64,000 bases of DNA from Acidithiobacillus thiooxidans ATCC 19377 (lineage in GTDB: Bacteria > Pseudomonadota > Gammaproteobacteria > Acidithiobacillales > Acidithiobacillaceae). Numbering within the stretch: the first letter of the stretch is position 1; every line of letters starts with the position of its first letter. Where the stretch lies: the NCBI RefSeq assembly GCF_009662475.1, contig NZ_CP045571.1:3160501-3224500 (forward strand), given 5' to 3'. Below the pieces are notes generated by a model, which saw only the letters and a program-made list of their open reading frames with translations, was not told where the DNA came from and searched no databases. Of the stretch, positions 34,569 to 62,847 are shown piece after piece. A program made the position numbers and the translations under genes.

Positions 34569-34591
34569 AAAAAAGCCCCGCAGAGCGGGGC
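34569..34591 (-). terminator. rho-independent terminator of the porin / OmpA-lipoprotein unit
   Basis: On the minus strand the hairpin GCCCCGC-TCT-GCGGGGC (34575-34591) is followed directly by six T (34569-34574 complement). The stem is 7 bp, all G-C. It sits about 70 nt after the stop of the OmpA-like gene. On the plus strand no T-run follows, so it serves only the minus-strand unit. Confidence 0.88.
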
Positions 34592-34663: not shown

Positions 34664-35212
34664 TTAGTTGACGGTTTTTTCCACCTGAATGGTCGAATTG
34701 ATTTCCACCCGCTGGTTGGCAAAACGACCCTGCGGCGTTGCATTGCTGGCGACCGGATCATTATAGGAATGGCCCTTCAGCACCATCCGCGAACGGGACA
34801 CACCGTGCGCTTCCAGATACCGAGCAACACTGTCAGCGCGCTGTTCTGACAAACGCTGGTTGTAGGCGTAGCTGCCTACCTTACTGCAGTAACCATTGAC
34901 ATCCAGTACCGCGCTGCTGTGCTTTTGGGCAAAATCCGCCACTTGATCCAGAACCTGGATGTCATGACTCATAAGCTTGGCAGAATTCAGCTTGAAGTTG
35001 ATACCCGTGATGGTAATGGGTTTGCTCTGCAGAACCTTACGCTGCACCGGTGCAATGGGGGCCGGAACAGGAACGGGCGCAGGAGCCGGGGCCGGCACAG
35101 GTGCCGCTACCGGTGCCTTGTTGGCAGGACAGCCCTGAAAGGGGGCTTCCGCACAACCCGCCGCCGCCATCACCATTACCGCGAGTAATACATGTTTTTT
35201 GGCAATCATCAT
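34664..35212 (-). CDS. OmpA-family (peptidoglycan-binding) lipoprotein
   Basis: A 182-residue lipoprotein. The signal peptide ends AAAGC (lipobox), followed by a Pro-Ala-Val-rich spacer (about residues 35-60) and a C-terminal OmpA-like domain of about 115 residues: INFKLNSAKLMSHDIQVLDQ, then NGYCSKVGSYAYNQRLSEQR and GRFANQRVEI. The N-x2-L-S-x2-R-A signature of peptidoglycan binding is present. It would anchor the outer membrane to the wall, like Pal. GGGAG lies 4 nt before the ATG. It is the second gene of a two-gene unit, 32 bp after the porin stop, with a terminator following. Confidence 0.9.
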   Translation of the reverse strand: MMIAKKHVLLAVMVMAAAGCAEAPFQGCPANKAPVAAPVPAPAPAPVPVPAPIAPVQRKVLQSKPITITGINFKLNSAKLMSHDIQVLDQVADFAQKHSSAVLDVNGYCSKVGSYAYNQRLSEQRADSVARYLEAHGVSRSRMVLKGHSYNDPVASNATPQGRFANQRVEINSTIQVEKTVN

Positions 35213-35244: not shown

Positions 35245-36585
35245 TTAGAATGCGTAGGTCAACATCACGCGGTTGTAGATGAAGTAGCCGGTCGAAAGAT
35301 CACCATGGGCCACTTCCACCCGGTCACGAATGGACAAACCCTTGAGGAAGCCCTTGGGGAAGTAAGTCAGATCACCATAGATATCGTTGGCATAACCTGC
35401 CGCCTGGAGATGGTACTGGGCGTAAGCCGTCTGGAACAAAAAGCTGTTGTTAAGAAAATGCTGGCTCAGGCCAATTTTAAAGCCATGACCGGGACCCATT
35501 TCCACCAGACCACGAATCATGGAAGTGGTATAGAGGGGATCTGTCGCATAACCGACGGTATAGGGCGAAACAATGGCACCACCACCGATGGCTCCAGGAT
35601 GATATTCGATTTCGTTGTAAGCGGCTGTCAGTGCCCCTTTGCCGAAAATAGCGTTATCCAGGTTATATTTGACACCACCTTTTATACCCCAGGCAGTGCT
35701 GTTGACGCCGTTGCCCTGGAAACCATCTACTTTACCTGCTCCGTAGGCACCATTAAGACGACTATTGGCATCCCACTCGCGTACCACCTGACCGCCCAGG
35801 AATGGATCCAGCCCCATGCCAGTTTTCAGGGTATAGCTGGCATCACCGTAAAACATATTGGTAAAATTATAGAAGTTGTAATACCAGGCCTGAGCGTTGA
35901 TACCGTACCTCTTGTAACTTGTACCAAACGCCAAAATACCATTAGAAGCTGGCGTAGTTGCGGGCAGGTCAGCGGCGCCACCATAAATGGGGTCACCGTC
36001 GAAACCGGTGTTGTAATACAGGTTATCGCGGTAATAGTCACCGGAGGTGCGACTCTTCCAGCGGAACATCCGCATGCCGTAAATATTCCAGCCGCAGTAA
36101 GGGGTCACCTGCGCAAAAATACCCTGATAGGTAGCCGGAATCATGCGGGAATCAGAACCGTTGACAAAAGGCGTGTTCACTTCCTGGTTACCGGCACGAA
36201 TCATCACCACATCGGGAATGGCATATTGCAGATAAGCCTGACCCAAGGCATTGATGGAATCGGCCTTGCCCATCAAGGTCACATCAGGATTAACGCGATT
36301 GGCGCCCAGACTGTTGGCTGTATAAAAACCTACGTCAGCACTGAAACCCGCCGCAGAAGGAGTATGCACGTTAATGTAGCCACCCAGCGAGAAGGCGCTG
36401 AGATTTGTGGCATTCTTTCCAAAAAAGCGATCAAAGTAGTAAGAACGAATCTGTCCATCTACCTTGCTGTGCATAAAAAAGTCAGCCAGGGTATTTCCTG
36501 TGGAACTGCTGTCGGCATGAGCGACGGCAGCAAATCCGCTCAGGGCAGCAAACAGTGCAACAGCAACGCGGTTTTTCTTCAACAT
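35245..36585 (-). CDS. outer-membrane porin (OprD-like)
   Basis: A 446-residue outer-membrane protein. A signal peptide (about residues 1-24, ending AHA-DS) is followed by an all-beta mature part with many alternating aromatic strands, for example GQIRSYYFDRFFGK and YYFN-type strands. It ends with the strand YNRVMLTYAF, where the terminal Phe is typical of porins. The layout ADFFMHSKVDGQIRSYYF resembles OprD-family porins. GAGGAGG precedes the ATG at 36585; an in-frame ATG at 36690 lies upstream of the promoter found here. The substrate is unknown. The Pho box upstream suggests phosphate or a phosphorylated compound. Confidence 0.85.
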   Translation of the reverse strand: MLKKNRVAVALFAALSGFAAVAHADSSSTGNTLADFFMHSKVDGQIRSYYFDRFFGKNATNLSAFSLGGYINVHTPSAAGFSADVGFYTANSLGANRVNPDVTLMGKADSINALGQAYLQYAIPDVVMIRAGNQEVNTPFVNGSDSRMIPATYQGIFAQVTPYCGWNIYGMRMFRWKSRTSGDYYRDNLYYNTGFDGDPIYGGAADLPATTPASNGILAFGTSYKRYGINAQAWYYNFYNFTNMFYGDASYTLKTGMGLDPFLGGQVVREWDANSRLNGAYGAGKVDGFQGNGVNSTAWGIKGGVKYNLDNAIFGKGALTAAYNEIEYHPGAIGGGAIVSPYTVGYATDPLYTTSMIRGLVEMGPGHGFKIGLSQHFLNNSFLFQTAYAQYHLQAAGYANDIYGDLTYFPKGFLKGLSIRDRVEVAHGDLSTGYFIYNRVMLTYAF

Positions 36586-36625
36586 GTGACCTCCTCGATT
36601 TAGGGTTCTTTGCAACACTGTGGGC

Positions 36626-36659
36626 ATAATAACGAGGCTATGTGACAAGATGATGACAG
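36626..36659 (-). promoter_or_regulatory. Pho box and -10 element for the porin unit
   Basis: On the minus strand CTGTCATCATCTTGTCAC (36642-36659) contains the two 7-mers CTGTCAT and TTGTCAC separated by 4 bp, as in the PhoB box. Ten bases downstream is TATTAT (36626-36631 on the plus strand), a good -10. There is no separate -35 hexamer, as expected for a PhoB-activated promoter. The porin ATG lies about 40 nt further. Confidence 0.75.
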
Positions 36660-36876
36660 TTTTATGAACCTTTTGTGACGTTATTTCCATATAAATATAA
36701 CGATTATGACAGAAACAGGTTGAAAGAGGAATCCATCATTCTAAAAACGGCGGTGGGCCTGGGGCTTTGTAGCGACTTTGGCCCGCTCCGACTGCCGTTT
36801 CGAGGATTAAAGCATGTTGCAGGACGCGATGATCGTGGGACAATGCATTCTGGAAACCTCCTGATTCGAGTCTGCC

Positions 36877-37809
36877 ATGCCCATTGAAATCCGCCACCTG
36901 CGCACCATCGAAGCTGTCGCCCAGTTTGGAAGTCTGGCTGCCGCAGCCCAGCGCCTGCATCTGACCCAGTCCGCCCTGTCCCATCAGCTCCGGGGTCTGG
37001 AAGCGGAATTTGGTGTCAATATTCTGGACCGCGAACGGGGCAGCCAACTACGCCTCAGCCCTGCCGGCGAAGAATTGCTGGCGGCGGCGCGGGAAGTTCT
37101 GCCCCGCGTGCGGCAGTTGCAGGAAGAACTTAAACGCCGGGCACTGGGCAACAGTGGACGTCTGCGTATTGCCGTGGAATGTCATACCTGCTTTGACTGG
37201 CTGACCCCGGCCATGGATCGTTTCCGGGAAAACTGGCCGGACGTCGAGATGGACCTGGTGTCCGGTTTTCAACAGGACCCTCTGCCCCTCCTGCAAAGTC
37301 ATCAGGCTGATCTGACCGTACTGACTGCTCCTGATGCCATGGCTGCGGACATTGTCCTGCATCCCCTGTTTGCCTACGAAGTGGTCGCTCTGGTCAATCC
37401 TCGCCACACCCTGGCCAGCAAGCCTTATCTGGAGCCCGCCGATTTTCTGGAGGAAACCCTCATCACCTATCCGGTAGAAGACCGACGTCTGGATTTATTC
37501 CGGGAGTTTCTGCAACCCGCTGGTATCCAGCCCTGGCGCCGGCGTCACGCCGAACTGACGGTCATCATCCTGCAACTGGTCGCCTCCGGTCAGGGTATTG
37601 CCGCCCTCCCTTCCTGGGCGGTGGGGAGCTACGGTGAAAAGGGTTATGTGCGCGCCCTGCCACTGGGTTCCCAAGGTCTTTGGCAGACTTTGCAGGCAGC
37701 CACCACGGCTGAGCAGTCGGAACAAGAGCACATGCGCGCCTTTCTGGATGAAATCCGAGCCAGTGTGGCTGCAAATCTACTTGGAGTAAAAGATATTCAG
37801 GGCGTATGA
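36877..37809 (+). CDS. metR: LysR-family regulator MetR
   Basis: A 310-residue LysR regulator. It matches E. coli MetR closely by eye. The N-terminal HTH includes GSLAAAAQRLHLTQSALSHQ, the effector domain begins LRIAVECHTCFDWLTPAMDR, and EETLITYPVEDRRLDLFREF then LQPAGIQPW and GIAALPSWAV are all shared motifs. MetR activates methionine-synthesis genes (metE, metH) with homocysteine as co-regulator. No met gene lies nearby; the next gene is hemN. An upstream in-frame start is not seen. GGAAACCTCC-type sequence is present, but no perfect ribosome site precedes the ATG. Confidence 0.92.
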   Translation: MPIEIRHLRTIEAVAQFGSLAAAAQRLHLTQSALSHQLRGLEAEFGVNILDRERGSQLRLSPAGEELLAAAREVLPRVRQLQEELKRRALGNSGRLRIAVECHTCFDWLTPAMDRFRENWPDVEMDLVSGFQQDPLPLLQSHQADLTVLTAPDAMAADIVLHPLFAYEVVALVNPRHTLASKPYLEPADFLEETLITYPVEDRRLDLFREFLQPAGIQPWRRRHAELTVIILQLVASGQGIAALPSWAVGSYGEKGYVRALPLGSQGLWQTLQAATTAEQSEQEHMRAFLDEIRASVAANLLGVKDIQGV

Positions 37810-60579: not shown

Positions 60580-60613
60580 TTGTCATAAAACTGTCACATT
60601 CGAGGCGTACACT
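60580..60613 (+). promoter_or_regulatory. Pho box and -10 element upstream of the ABC transporter
   Basis: TTGTCATAAAACTGTCAC (60580-60597) matches the PhoB box consensus at all but the first base, with the two 7-mers 4 bp apart. TACACT (60608-60613) follows after exactly 10 bp, the normal PhoB-box to -10 spacing, and there is no separate -35. The same spacing occurs at the porin promoter on the minus strand near 36.6 kb. Confidence 0.82.
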
Positions 60614-60643: not shown

Positions 60644-60735
60644 ATGCCTCGAAACAAGCTGATTGTAGCCGTACAATGATGAATACCCTTGTAATTAAAA
60701 AAACTACACATCTACTAACGTTCCATGGTTGCTGA
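60644..60735 (+). other. two coupled minicistrons in the Pho leader
   Basis: A short ORF, MPRNKLIVAVQ (60644-60679), has GGAGATAATTGTC before its ATG. Its TGA overlaps the ATG of a second 19-codon ORF (60676-60735), which itself runs across the ABC-ATPase start at 60725. The ATPase ATG has no clear ribosome site, so translation could depend on ribosomes finishing this leader. Either ORF may also be a chance reading. Confidence 0.35.
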
Positions 60736-61861
60736 ACTGCAGGTAAAAAGCCGGCCGGCAATCGCGGCGGTGCCCAACGAACCGGCGCTTTCGGTGCAGG
60801 GACTGAATGTGCGCTTTGGCGCCCAGACGGTCTTGAGTAACGTCCAGATGGATCTTGAAGATGGTCGTTACGCCTGCCTGCTGGGTGAATCAGGATCAGG
60901 CAAAAGCACCTTGCTGGCGGCCATTGCCGGGCTCATCAAGCCCCGGGCTGGCAGTATTCGCCTGCGCGGTCAGCATGTATTCACCGCCGGGGGCATACAG
61001 ATTCCTCCCGAAAAACGCGGCATTGGTATGGTTTTTCAGGATGCGGCGCTCTGGCCCCACCTCCGGGTCATTGATAATGTTCTTTTTCCCCTGCGCGCTC
61101 AGGGACTTCCGGTAGATCGCGAGCGGGCCATGCTGCTGCTGGAAAAAATGAACATTCCTGCTACCGCAGCAAAGCGCAAACCCCACGAATTATCGGGTGG
61201 GCAACGGCAGCGGGTCGCCATTGCCCGCGCCATCATCGCCCGTCCGCGTCTGGTCTTACTGGATGAACCCTTATCCGCCGTAGATCAGGGGGTTCGCGAA
61301 GAAATCCGCTACTTTCTCCGTACCCTGTTTCGTGAAGAAGGCATTGCCGCCCTGCATGTCACCCATGATCCCAGCGAAGCCTTTTATCTGGGCCAACATG
61401 TCGGCGTTCTCCACAGCGGTCATCTGGAACAATGGGATCAACCGGAGAAACTGTTCCGTTTCCCGGCTAGTGAAAATGTAGCTCGACTCAGCGGCTCCGT
61501 CCGGAGCCTACCCGTAAAGATTATTCAATATCAGGGCGGTAAAGCCGAAGTCGCGTTGGCAAATGGCCAGAAAATATGGGTACCCGGGGCCGATACACTG
61601 CGTGAAGGCAAACCTGGTCTTTTGCTGCTGCGCCCCGGAGACATTGACTGCGACGGCCCGGAAGCCGCATTTGCTGGCGAAGCCATTCATTCCCATTGGA
61701 GTGATGGTCGCTATCTGGTGCATTTGCAGGCTTTCGGCCAGCACGAATTATTGAGCTACTCCCAGCAAAGCAGTCTGGGTCCGCGCCACTGGCAAATTTA
61801 CCCAAATCACGGCTGGTGCATTCCTGCCGAAACTTCCGCAACTCAGGAGAAAACCCTATGA
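60725..61861 (+). CDS. ABC transporter ATP-binding protein (FbpC/PhnT/PotA-like)
   Basis: A 378-residue ATPase. Walker A is LLGESGSGKSTLLAAIAGLI, the signature is HELSGGQRQRVAIARAIIAR, Walker B is LVLLDEPLSAVDQ and the switch His is in ALHVTHDPSEA. A C-terminal TOBE-like domain (about residues 260-370) is present. This type powers importers of ferric iron, phosphonates, sulfate or spermidine. Upstream are a Pho box and short leader ORFs; no ribosome site is evident. The stop overlaps the next ATG. Confidence 0.93.
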   Translation: MVAELQVKSRPAIAAVPNEPALSVQGLNVRFGAQTVLSNVQMDLEDGRYACLLGESGSGKSTLLAAIAGLIKPRAGSIRLRGQHVFTAGGIQIPPEKRGIGMVFQDAALWPHLRVIDNVLFPLRAQGLPVDRERAMLLLEKMNIPATAAKRKPHELSGGQRQRVAIARAIIARPRLVLLDEPLSAVDQGVREEIRYFLRTLFREEGIAALHVTHDPSEAFYLGQHVGVLHSGHLEQWDQPEKLFRFPASENVARLSGSVRSLPVKIIQYQGGKAEVALANGQKIWVPGADTLREGKPGLLLLRPGDIDCDGPEAAFAGEAIHSHWSDGRYLVHLQAFGQHELLSYSQQSSLGPRHWQIYPNHGWCIPAETSATQEKTL

Positions 61862-62847
61862 ACCCCGTAGTCAAACAAGTTACCTTGGCCATCATGAGTC
61901 TGGCATTTGCAGGCACTGCTTCTGCCGCCACGCTGACTTTGTACAGTGCTGCGCCAGCTTCTTTAGCCAAGGCTCTGGCGCGCGCATTCAGCAAAAAAAC
62001 CGGTGATCACGTCGCCGTGTGGACATCCAGCACCGGAAAAGTCATGGCCCGCCTTGCGGCCGAAGCTGACCATCCGCATGCCGATGTGGTCATGGTCGCC
62101 GACTGGACAGCCGGCCTGGAACTCGCCAAAGACAAGATGGTGTATGACTATCAACCTGAAAGCATCGACAAAAATCTTTTCCCGGCCATGCAGCTCAAAG
62201 GACCCTTCCTGCCCTATGGTGCCGATACGGTTTCCATGGTCATGAACAGCAAAGCCTTGCCCAAGGGCGCGAGCATGCCTACCAGCTGGTTTGATCTGAC
62301 CGCTCCCGTCTGGAAAAATCACCTCACCGCGCCCAACCCGCTGCTCTCGGGCACGGCTTCGGATTTTGTCATTGCCTTTGTGGATAAATACGGCAACAAG
62401 GCCTGGCAATATTTTTCCGACCTGAAAGCCAATGGCACCGTCTGGCCGGGGACTAATCATACCGCACTGATGCCGGTACTTTCCGGTGAACGCAGTGGGA
62501 TGGTGGAGTGCGTTGGGCATGCCGCCGTGCAGGCCAAGGTACAGGGCAACTCCATTCAGCTGATTTACCCGAAAGAAGGCACCATGCTGATTCCCCGCCC
62601 CATCATGATCATGCAGTCGGCGCCGGATAAAAAGCTGGCCGAACAGTTTGTCAATTTCACCATGTCCCCTGCCGGACAAAAACTCGTCGCCAAATATAAT
62701 CTCTATCCTTCCCTGAATGGCGTTGCCGCCAAACCTGCTCTGGCCAAGCTCGGTACTTATCCGGTCATGCAGGTCAACTGGGATCAGGTCGCCGCAACCC
62801 GCGCCAGCGTGCTGGCCAAATTCCGCAAGGACATTCTCGGTCAATGA
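61858..62847 (+). CDS. ABC transporter periplasmic substrate-binding protein (ferric or phosphonate type)
   Basis: A 329-residue exported binding protein. The Sec signal spans about residues 1-22 (ending ASAA). The mature start TLTLYSAAPASLAKALARAF and the segment SSTGKVMARLAAEADHPHAD, then VVMVADWTAGLELAKDKMVY, fit the FbpA/PhnS type II fold. The Tyr-Tyr pair of classic ferric FbpA near the C-terminus is not evident. With the Pho box upstream, a phosphonate or organophosphate ligand is as likely as iron. The ATG overlaps the ATPase stop, and the stop overlaps the permease start. Confidence 0.88.
   Translation: MNPVVKQVTLAIMSLAFAGTASAATLTLYSAAPASLAKALARAFSKKTGDHVAVWTSSTGKVMARLAAEADHPHADVVMVADWTAGLELAKDKMVYDYQPESIDKNLFPAMQLKGPFLPYGADTVSMVMNSKALPKGASMPTSWFDLTAPVWKNHLTAPNPLLSGTASDFVIAFVDKYGNKAWQYFSDLKANGTVWPGTNHTALMPVLSGERSGMVECVGHAAVQAKVQGNSIQLIYPKEGTMLIPRPIMIMQSAPDKKLAEQFVNFTMSPAGQKLVAKYNLYPSLNGVAAKPALAKLGTYPVMQVNWDQVAATRASVLAKFRKDILGQ

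Follow-up and report, generated by a model that had tools for sequence, protein, structure and literature searches.

The window analysed here, a stretch of 64,000 nucleotides from Acidithiobacillus thiooxidans ATCC 19377 (contig NZ_CP045571.1, positions 3,160,501 to 3,224,500), contains a minus-strand gene for an outer-membrane porin of the OprD/Occ family that is preceded by a predicted PhoB operator and followed by a gene for an OmpA-domain lipoprotein-like protein and a hairpin. A second Pho box lies elsewhere in the window, on the plus strand. The features, in window coordinates, are as follows.

34575..34591, minus strand: hairpin followed by T6, predicted terminator
34664..35212, minus strand: OmpA-domain lipoprotein-like gene, 32 nt past the porin stop
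35245..36585, minus strand: OprD/Occ-family porin of 446 amino acids, with an N-terminal signal peptide inferred
36590..36596, minus strand: GAGGAGG, ribosome-binding site of the porin gene, read from the sequence
36626..36631, minus strand: -10 hexamer TATTAT, 10 bp past the last Pho unit
36642..36681, minus strand: four tandem 11-bp Pho units, predicted PhoB operator
60580..60597, plus strand: second Pho box, TTGTCATAAAACTGTCAC, 10 bp before TACACT (60608-60613), from pattern scans and a held-out matrix
60644..60679, plus strand: 11-codon stub MPRNKLIVAVQ-stop, which matches the start of a second OprD-family porin, from comparison with genome G001
60725..61861, plus strand: ATP-binding protein of an ABC transporter, downstream of the second Pho promoter, from a profile search

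The promoter-proximal pair of units, CTGTCATCATCTTGTCAC, occupies positions 36659-36642 of the minus strand, where it reads CTGTCAT-CATC-TTGTCAC, and this 18-mer occurs once on that strand of the window. The 10-bp spacer ATAGCCTCGT separates it from the -10 hexamer, and the ATG start codon of the porin lies at 36585. The preliminary description, which reported CTGTCAT-N4-TTGTCAC followed by 10 bp and TATTAT on the minus strand, matches the sequence exactly; the extent that it gave to the feature, 36586-36676, has to be revised because, although the site itself is real, two upstream units were missed. These units, ACGTCAC and GGTTCAT, lie in the same 11-bp register, with aaaa after each of them, which extends the operator to four units (36681-36642), 5 bp past the earlier boundary. 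In the Pho promoters of E. coli, the box lies 10 bp from the -10 hexamer and replaces the -35 element. A scan for sigma-70 -35/-10 pairs found no ordinary promoter at the porin site, which fits an activator-dependent promoter without proving it. The porin gene adjoins a divergent LysR-type gene (window 36877-37809; the nearest model is MetR, with 249.9 bits, below the cut-off of 382), and the intergenic region between the two genes also holds an REP-like element, palindromic by eye (window 36738-36790), that has 19 further partial matches of 82-89% identity elsewhere in the same genome.

The assignment of the porin to the OprD-like proteins, which had been proposed from the DNA alone, is borne out by three lines of evidence, namely, a score above the cut-off for the Pfam OprD model (PF03573, 29.8 bits, cut-off 25), an 18-strand structural model, and nearest folds of the Occ/OprD type. 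The score against the NCBIfam Opr porin model, 19.2 bits, is far below the cut-off of 100, and the porin shows no match to PF07396, the family of the phosphate-selective porins OprO and OprP, at E-values up to 1. The AlphaFold2 model, built from 13 sequences, has a mean pLDDT of 59 and a pTM of 0.61, a moderate confidence at which we did not take pore residues from the model. Among solved structures, the best Foldseek match of this model is OpdO (E 5.6e-18), and in structural alignments a BenF-like porin reaches a Z-score of 24.8 (331 residues, 3.4 A), compared with 15.3 for an OprO mutant. The porin alignment contains many invariant arginine and lysine columns, none of which is special to the clade of porins with a Pho box; the conserved columns are common to OprD-like paralogs that lack the box, so it is regulation, and not visible pore chemistry, that marks this clade, and the sequence of the pore itself gives no indication of phosphate.

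The other parts of the proposed unit fared differently. The OmpA-type lipoprotein gene, the presence of which had been stated, is identified by Pfam (OmpA, 2e-20) 32 nt 3' of the porin. It follows the porin in 13 of the 21 members of the box-bearing clade, the window included, and was not found in the 1.3-1.4 kb examined 3' of the porin in the other 8, so this gene is an accessory part. The 'strong terminator' held to close the unit stands only in part: the hairpin with its T6 is present, and a similar one is found in 14 of the 21 clade members, again counting the window, but, taken alone, this GC-type hairpin is weak, with a folding z-score of just -1.77, and a simple terminator scan of the region yields 4 candidates against a mean of 3.1, which is not above chance.

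The operator is well conserved. We aligned, gapless and anchored on the last unit pair, the upstream DNA of the 21 clade porins, that is, all those with readable upstream sequence. All four units are recognizable in 21 of the 21 sequences, and the 10-bp spacing and a TANNNT hexamer at the position of TATTAT are likewise kept in every one, with drifted flanking DNA. In the 14 orthologs with less than 80% protein identity, the mean identity to the window is 0.83 for units 1-2, 0.79 for units 3-4, 0.56 for the spacer, 0.77 for the -10 hexamer and 0.31 for the 58 bp upstream of the array. Among these same 14 sequences, GTCA of unit 1, TTCA of unit 2 and GTCA of unit 4 are invariant, and GTCAT of unit 3 has a single change in one sequence; the T, A and last T of the -10 hexamer are invariant across the aligned porins.

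In a phylogeny of 36 porins, two changes account for the distribution of the box, a value that none of 500 shuffles equalled. The box-bearing clade comprises 22 rows, 21 with the box and one without readable upstream DNA, and the fork that joins it has modest support (88/83); outside this clade, the box is carried only by the second Pho porin of G001. Some labels call for comment. L069 and L071 were labeled as carrying the box by hand (best pair 10/14, four units visible by eye), L049 (G017) has units that are degenerate by eye and score 9/14, and L057, without upstream DNA, was placed in no tree group. The label 'nobox' was given to the organism's own paralog at 3131645, as no pair of at least 12/14 is present in L086, and also, on the basis of an internal start, to L048, a row that should not count, which leaves 12 of the 13 'nobox' rows usable. 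The closest named relatives of the window porin are those of A. sp. HP-2 (94%), an A. ferrivorans MAG (93%), A. marinus and A. montserratensis (both 92%), followed by A. sulfurivorans and A. concretivorus (91%); an ortholog is present in G014 at 123609, and the lineage was found here mainly in Acidithiobacillaceae.

The site also stands out in scans of the window and of the complete genome, in which the window forms part of a single 3.416-Mb contig. A matrix of 34 positions, derived from eight sites elsewhere in the genome and scored on both strands of the window, ranks the porin site first among all positions, with 29.2 bits, and the box at 60580 second, with 24.7 bits; ranks 3 and 4 go to the porin array read in shifted registers, and no unconnected position exceeds 8.8 bits. 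A matrix of 15 sites keeps this order (31.2, 25.8 and 4.9 bits, respectively). Since the training sites were selected by consensus patterns, this test is held-out and yet pattern-dependent. Genome-wide, the two-box pattern with at most two mismatches occurs at 31 places against 11 in the reversed control, the box followed by 10 bp and TANNNT, again with at most two mismatches, at 27 places against 8, and the four-unit pattern with at most three mismatches at 9 places against 2. The 27 places include some that clearly are not such promoters, for example, those within coding frames (L098, L114), and, having been found by a pattern that contains the 10-bp spacing, these sites cannot test it; the same spacing is also seen in three of the four best two-box sites found without this criterion (L001, L002, L004). 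Only six places match the box, spacing and TANNNT without a mismatch. Two of them are inside the window, before the porin and the ABC transporter genes; the other four precede pstS, a gene for an OmpR-type DNA-binding domain, and the genes for an MFS transporter and a TonB-dependent receptor. The four-unit pattern is matched without a mismatch at the TonB receptor and porin sites only. A loose two-box scan of the window alone (up to three mismatches) gave 11 matches against 5.1 expected, a number reached in 3 of 100 shuffles, and was dropped as proof since it barely exceeds chance.

The genome encodes the regulators that such promoters imply. One protein passes the cut-off of the PhoB equivalog model (TIGR02154, 301.8 bits, cut-off 296.2; the next best match scores 187.2), and its gene lies beside those for PhoR (TIGR02966, 386.7 bits, cut-off 334.2), PhoU (245.1 bits, cut-off 130.25), PstB (399.7 bits, cut-off 343.2) and an exopolyphosphatase-like protein (293.7 bits, slightly below the cut-off of 307); a comparable pho cluster is described for A. 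ferrooxidans in section 3.1.2 of PMC2621215. The box with 10 bp and TANNNT is found without a mismatch before the gene for PstS (343.8 bits, cut-off 205) and with two mismatches before pstB (1904243). Other Pho-type sites, with one or two mismatches, precede genes for PPK2 (3279278), a metallophosphoesterase (7033) and a GT4 glycosyltransferase (1872095). A second MFS transporter gene also lies behind a Pho-type site (2704319), its best model being a phosphate:H+ symporter (282 bits, below the cut-off of 610), and a partial four-unit match is found upstream of a gene for an OlsB-like acyltransferase (2650417). The pattern of four units, 10 bp and TANNNT, with at most three mismatches, is not confined to this organism: 13 genomes of the genus contain 92 matches, compared with 1 in the reversed control, and six genomes outside the family contain 8, compared with none.

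Two groups of these sites merit mention in their own right. Those at the metallophosphoesterase, GT4 glycosyltransferase and OlsB-like acyltransferase genes (G000:C1 7033, 1872095 and 2650417) hint at replacement of membrane lipids during phosphate shortage. Two genes for TonB-dependent receptors (G000:C1 2705142 and 2593634) carry four-unit or near four-unit Pho arrays, so that a TonB-driven route for phosphorus is possible. Genes resembling ExbB, ExbD and TonB were read by eye behind the receptor at 2705163, with no NCBIfam match at 1e-20 near this position, and a PhoD-like gene nearby scores 26.2 bits against a cut-off of 1000.

Together, these observations bear on what reads the site, if anything does. 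Two CTGTCAT-like words could come to lie at a suitable distance in AT-rich upstream DNA by chance, and the excess of loose matches in the window over expectation (11 against 5.1) lends this explanation a measure of support; however, the held-out matrix ranks the porin site above every other position of the window, and the four units with their spacing persist in all 21 orthologs despite the drifted flanks, and we regard a chance match as extremely improbable. Recognition of the direct repeats by some other regulator of the OmpR/PhoB family has more to recommend it, given that the genome encodes five more near full-length matches to the PhoB model, other OmpR-type regulators with 160-187 bits, and that the gene for an OmpR-type DNA-binding domain is itself located behind a Pho-type site (2593771). 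This alternative nevertheless has to contend with the identical site type, spacing and -10 element before pstS, and with the passing of the PhoB cut-off by one regulator alone, and it appears improbable as well. Control of the porin unit by PhoB under phosphate starvation, predicted from the sequence, is very likely.

The second Pho box of the window, at 60580, is followed by the 11-codon stub and then by the ABC transporter. In G001 (L081), an intact OprD-family porin gene (Pfam, 45.6 bits) that begins with almost the same 11 codons stands behind this promoter, with the same ABC transporter genes after it; this second porin is missing in the genome examined here (G000) and in G003, G004 and G010, and the promoter has partial matches in G008 and G002. 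The open reading frame next to the ATP-binding protein, 61816-62847, encodes a binding protein that resembles those for 2-aminoethylphosphonate, below the cut-off, and the permease of G001 likewise resembles 2-aminoethylphosphonate systems below the curated cut-off.

The neighborhood of the porin in related bacteria offers a further link to phosphorus. In 7 of the 12 named relatives (L062-L068), the OprD-like porin is separated from the LysR gene side by a Porin_O_P porin gene (E 1.7e-56 in L164) and a phytase-like gene (E 6.1e-36); for L064 and L066, the record ends within the OprP gene. This cassette has a Pho array of its own in all four relatives read far enough: in G001 (record of L062) and G010 (record of L065), the array has four units without a mismatch, and in L068 and L067 it has two and three mismatches to the pattern, respectively. 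In L063, the last unit, the spacer and TA are visible at the edge of the stretch. Aligned over 70 columns, the promoters of the G001 OprP gene and of the window porin share 78.6% identity. As an observation on the relatives, the cassette under its four-unit promoter can be seen beside the porin at L164:2411-5240 and L163:4300-7131, and it is absent from the window. The LysR gene adjoins the porin in the window, L061, L069 and L070, with a gap of roughly 0.7 kb in L071, and the distant relative L072 has neither the LysR neighbor nor the cassette at its porin. In the complete genome examined here, Porin_O_P has two weak matches (36.0 and 33.8 bits, cut-off 20.9) and no gene comparable to those of G001 and G010 (190-193 bits).

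The suggestion of a phosphate-starvation outer-membrane channel, made in the preliminary description, is thus supported, as a prediction, by the presence of PhoB and PhoR, the promoter type shared with pstS and pstB, the units and spacing conserved across the clade, and the linkage in relatives to Porin_O_P and phytase-like genes. Upon phosphate shortage, phosphorylated PhoB would occupy the four tandem 11-bp units in a head-to-tail arrangement, the promoter-proximal pair would substitute for the -35 element, and PhoB would recruit the sigma-70 polymerase to TATTAT, 10 bp downstream. The genes for the OprD/Occ-type porin and for the OmpA-type lipoprotein would be transcribed together, with the hairpin (34591-34575) as the predicted end of the transcript. 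The porin could then raise the permeability of the outer membrane to phosphorus in the form of inorganic phosphate or small phosphate esters, and the phosphorus that enters might feed PstS and other importers of the regulon.

What passes through the pore is less clear-cut than the control of its gene. We lean toward phosphorus as the main permeant. Conceivably, the porin is, under the same PhoB control, a broad OprD-type channel that admits other small solutes, such as organic acids and amino acids, and serves a general envelope response. The OprD/Occ relatives with solved structures are channels for carboxylates and similar small molecules, a likeness that here extends to the fold alone, and the basic residues are alike in paralogs with and without the box. 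Yet an OprP-type porin and a phytase-like gene neighbor the porin in relatives, and the second box-bearing OprD-like porin, in G001, precedes an ABC transporter of the phosphonate type. A broad channel is a possibility to be taken seriously, but a somewhat doubtful one. If phosphorus is indeed the permeant, an OprD/Occ-type channel might even have taken over the role of the classical phosphate porin OprP in this lineage, an idea that stems from the fact that several relatives keep both porins under twin Pho promoters and the window genome has neither the cassette nor a comparable Porin_O_P gene. The first pKa of phosphoric acid is about 2.1, and an Occ-type pore could suit life near or below it, since an anion trap gains little where much of the phosphate carries no charge. 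We consider such a replacement rather unlikely; if true, it would show a solution to phosphate entry at very low pH.

In any case, the comparative evidence ties an OprD-type porin to the Pho regulon and identifies a specific, probable route of phosphorus across the outer membrane in bacteria of a genus that is used for biomining, and the Pho promoter model of the genus (units, 10 bp, TANNNT) can be used for reading the regulon. In the Acidithiobacillus and OprD/Pho literature searched, which included few subscription papers, we found no paper that assigns this porin gene to the Pho regulon and no expression or binding data for it.

A PhoB-type promoter on an outer-membrane porin is a known kind of arrangement; less usual is that the porin belongs to the OprD family. 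PhoB-dependent promoters are described, in the pertinent part of PMC4415409, as containing 11-nt direct repeats with the core CTGTCAT in E. coli, and some confirmed PHO boxes are located, according to the same source, at genes without obvious phosphate control. The porin site resembles the known Pho promoters in its 7+4 repeats, CTGTCAT core, 10 bp to the -10 hexamer and the presence of PhoB in the genome, but differs from them in having four consecutive units, the operator role of which is here a prediction. The protein resembles the OprD/Occ porins OpdO, OpdK and the BenF-like porin in the Pfam OprD match, the 18 predicted strands and the best solved folds, although it is just 10-16% identical to such porins in structural alignments. 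With OprO and OprP, it has in common the predicted role, and in relatives its OprP-type neighbor has the same kind of Pho promoter; unlike them, it belongs to another family, does not match PF07396 and is structurally farther from the OprO mutant than from the BenF-like porin. Perhaps the most relevant precedent for an OprD-type gene under PhoB is the oprD promoter of P. aeruginosa, which is reported, in the relevant part of PMC8041468, to be bound by PhoB, with confirmation from both ChIP-seq and EMSA; the two cases have in common an OprD-family gene with a promoter of the PhoB type, but the organism is another one and the porin is distant. Within the same genus, Omp40 of A. ferrooxidans (AFE_2741) is described, in portions of PMC8886135, PMC2621215 and PMC6070983, as an outer-membrane porin that rises at low phosphate and low pH, so that it is comparable, by description, to the porin of the window, for which control by phosphate is predicted.
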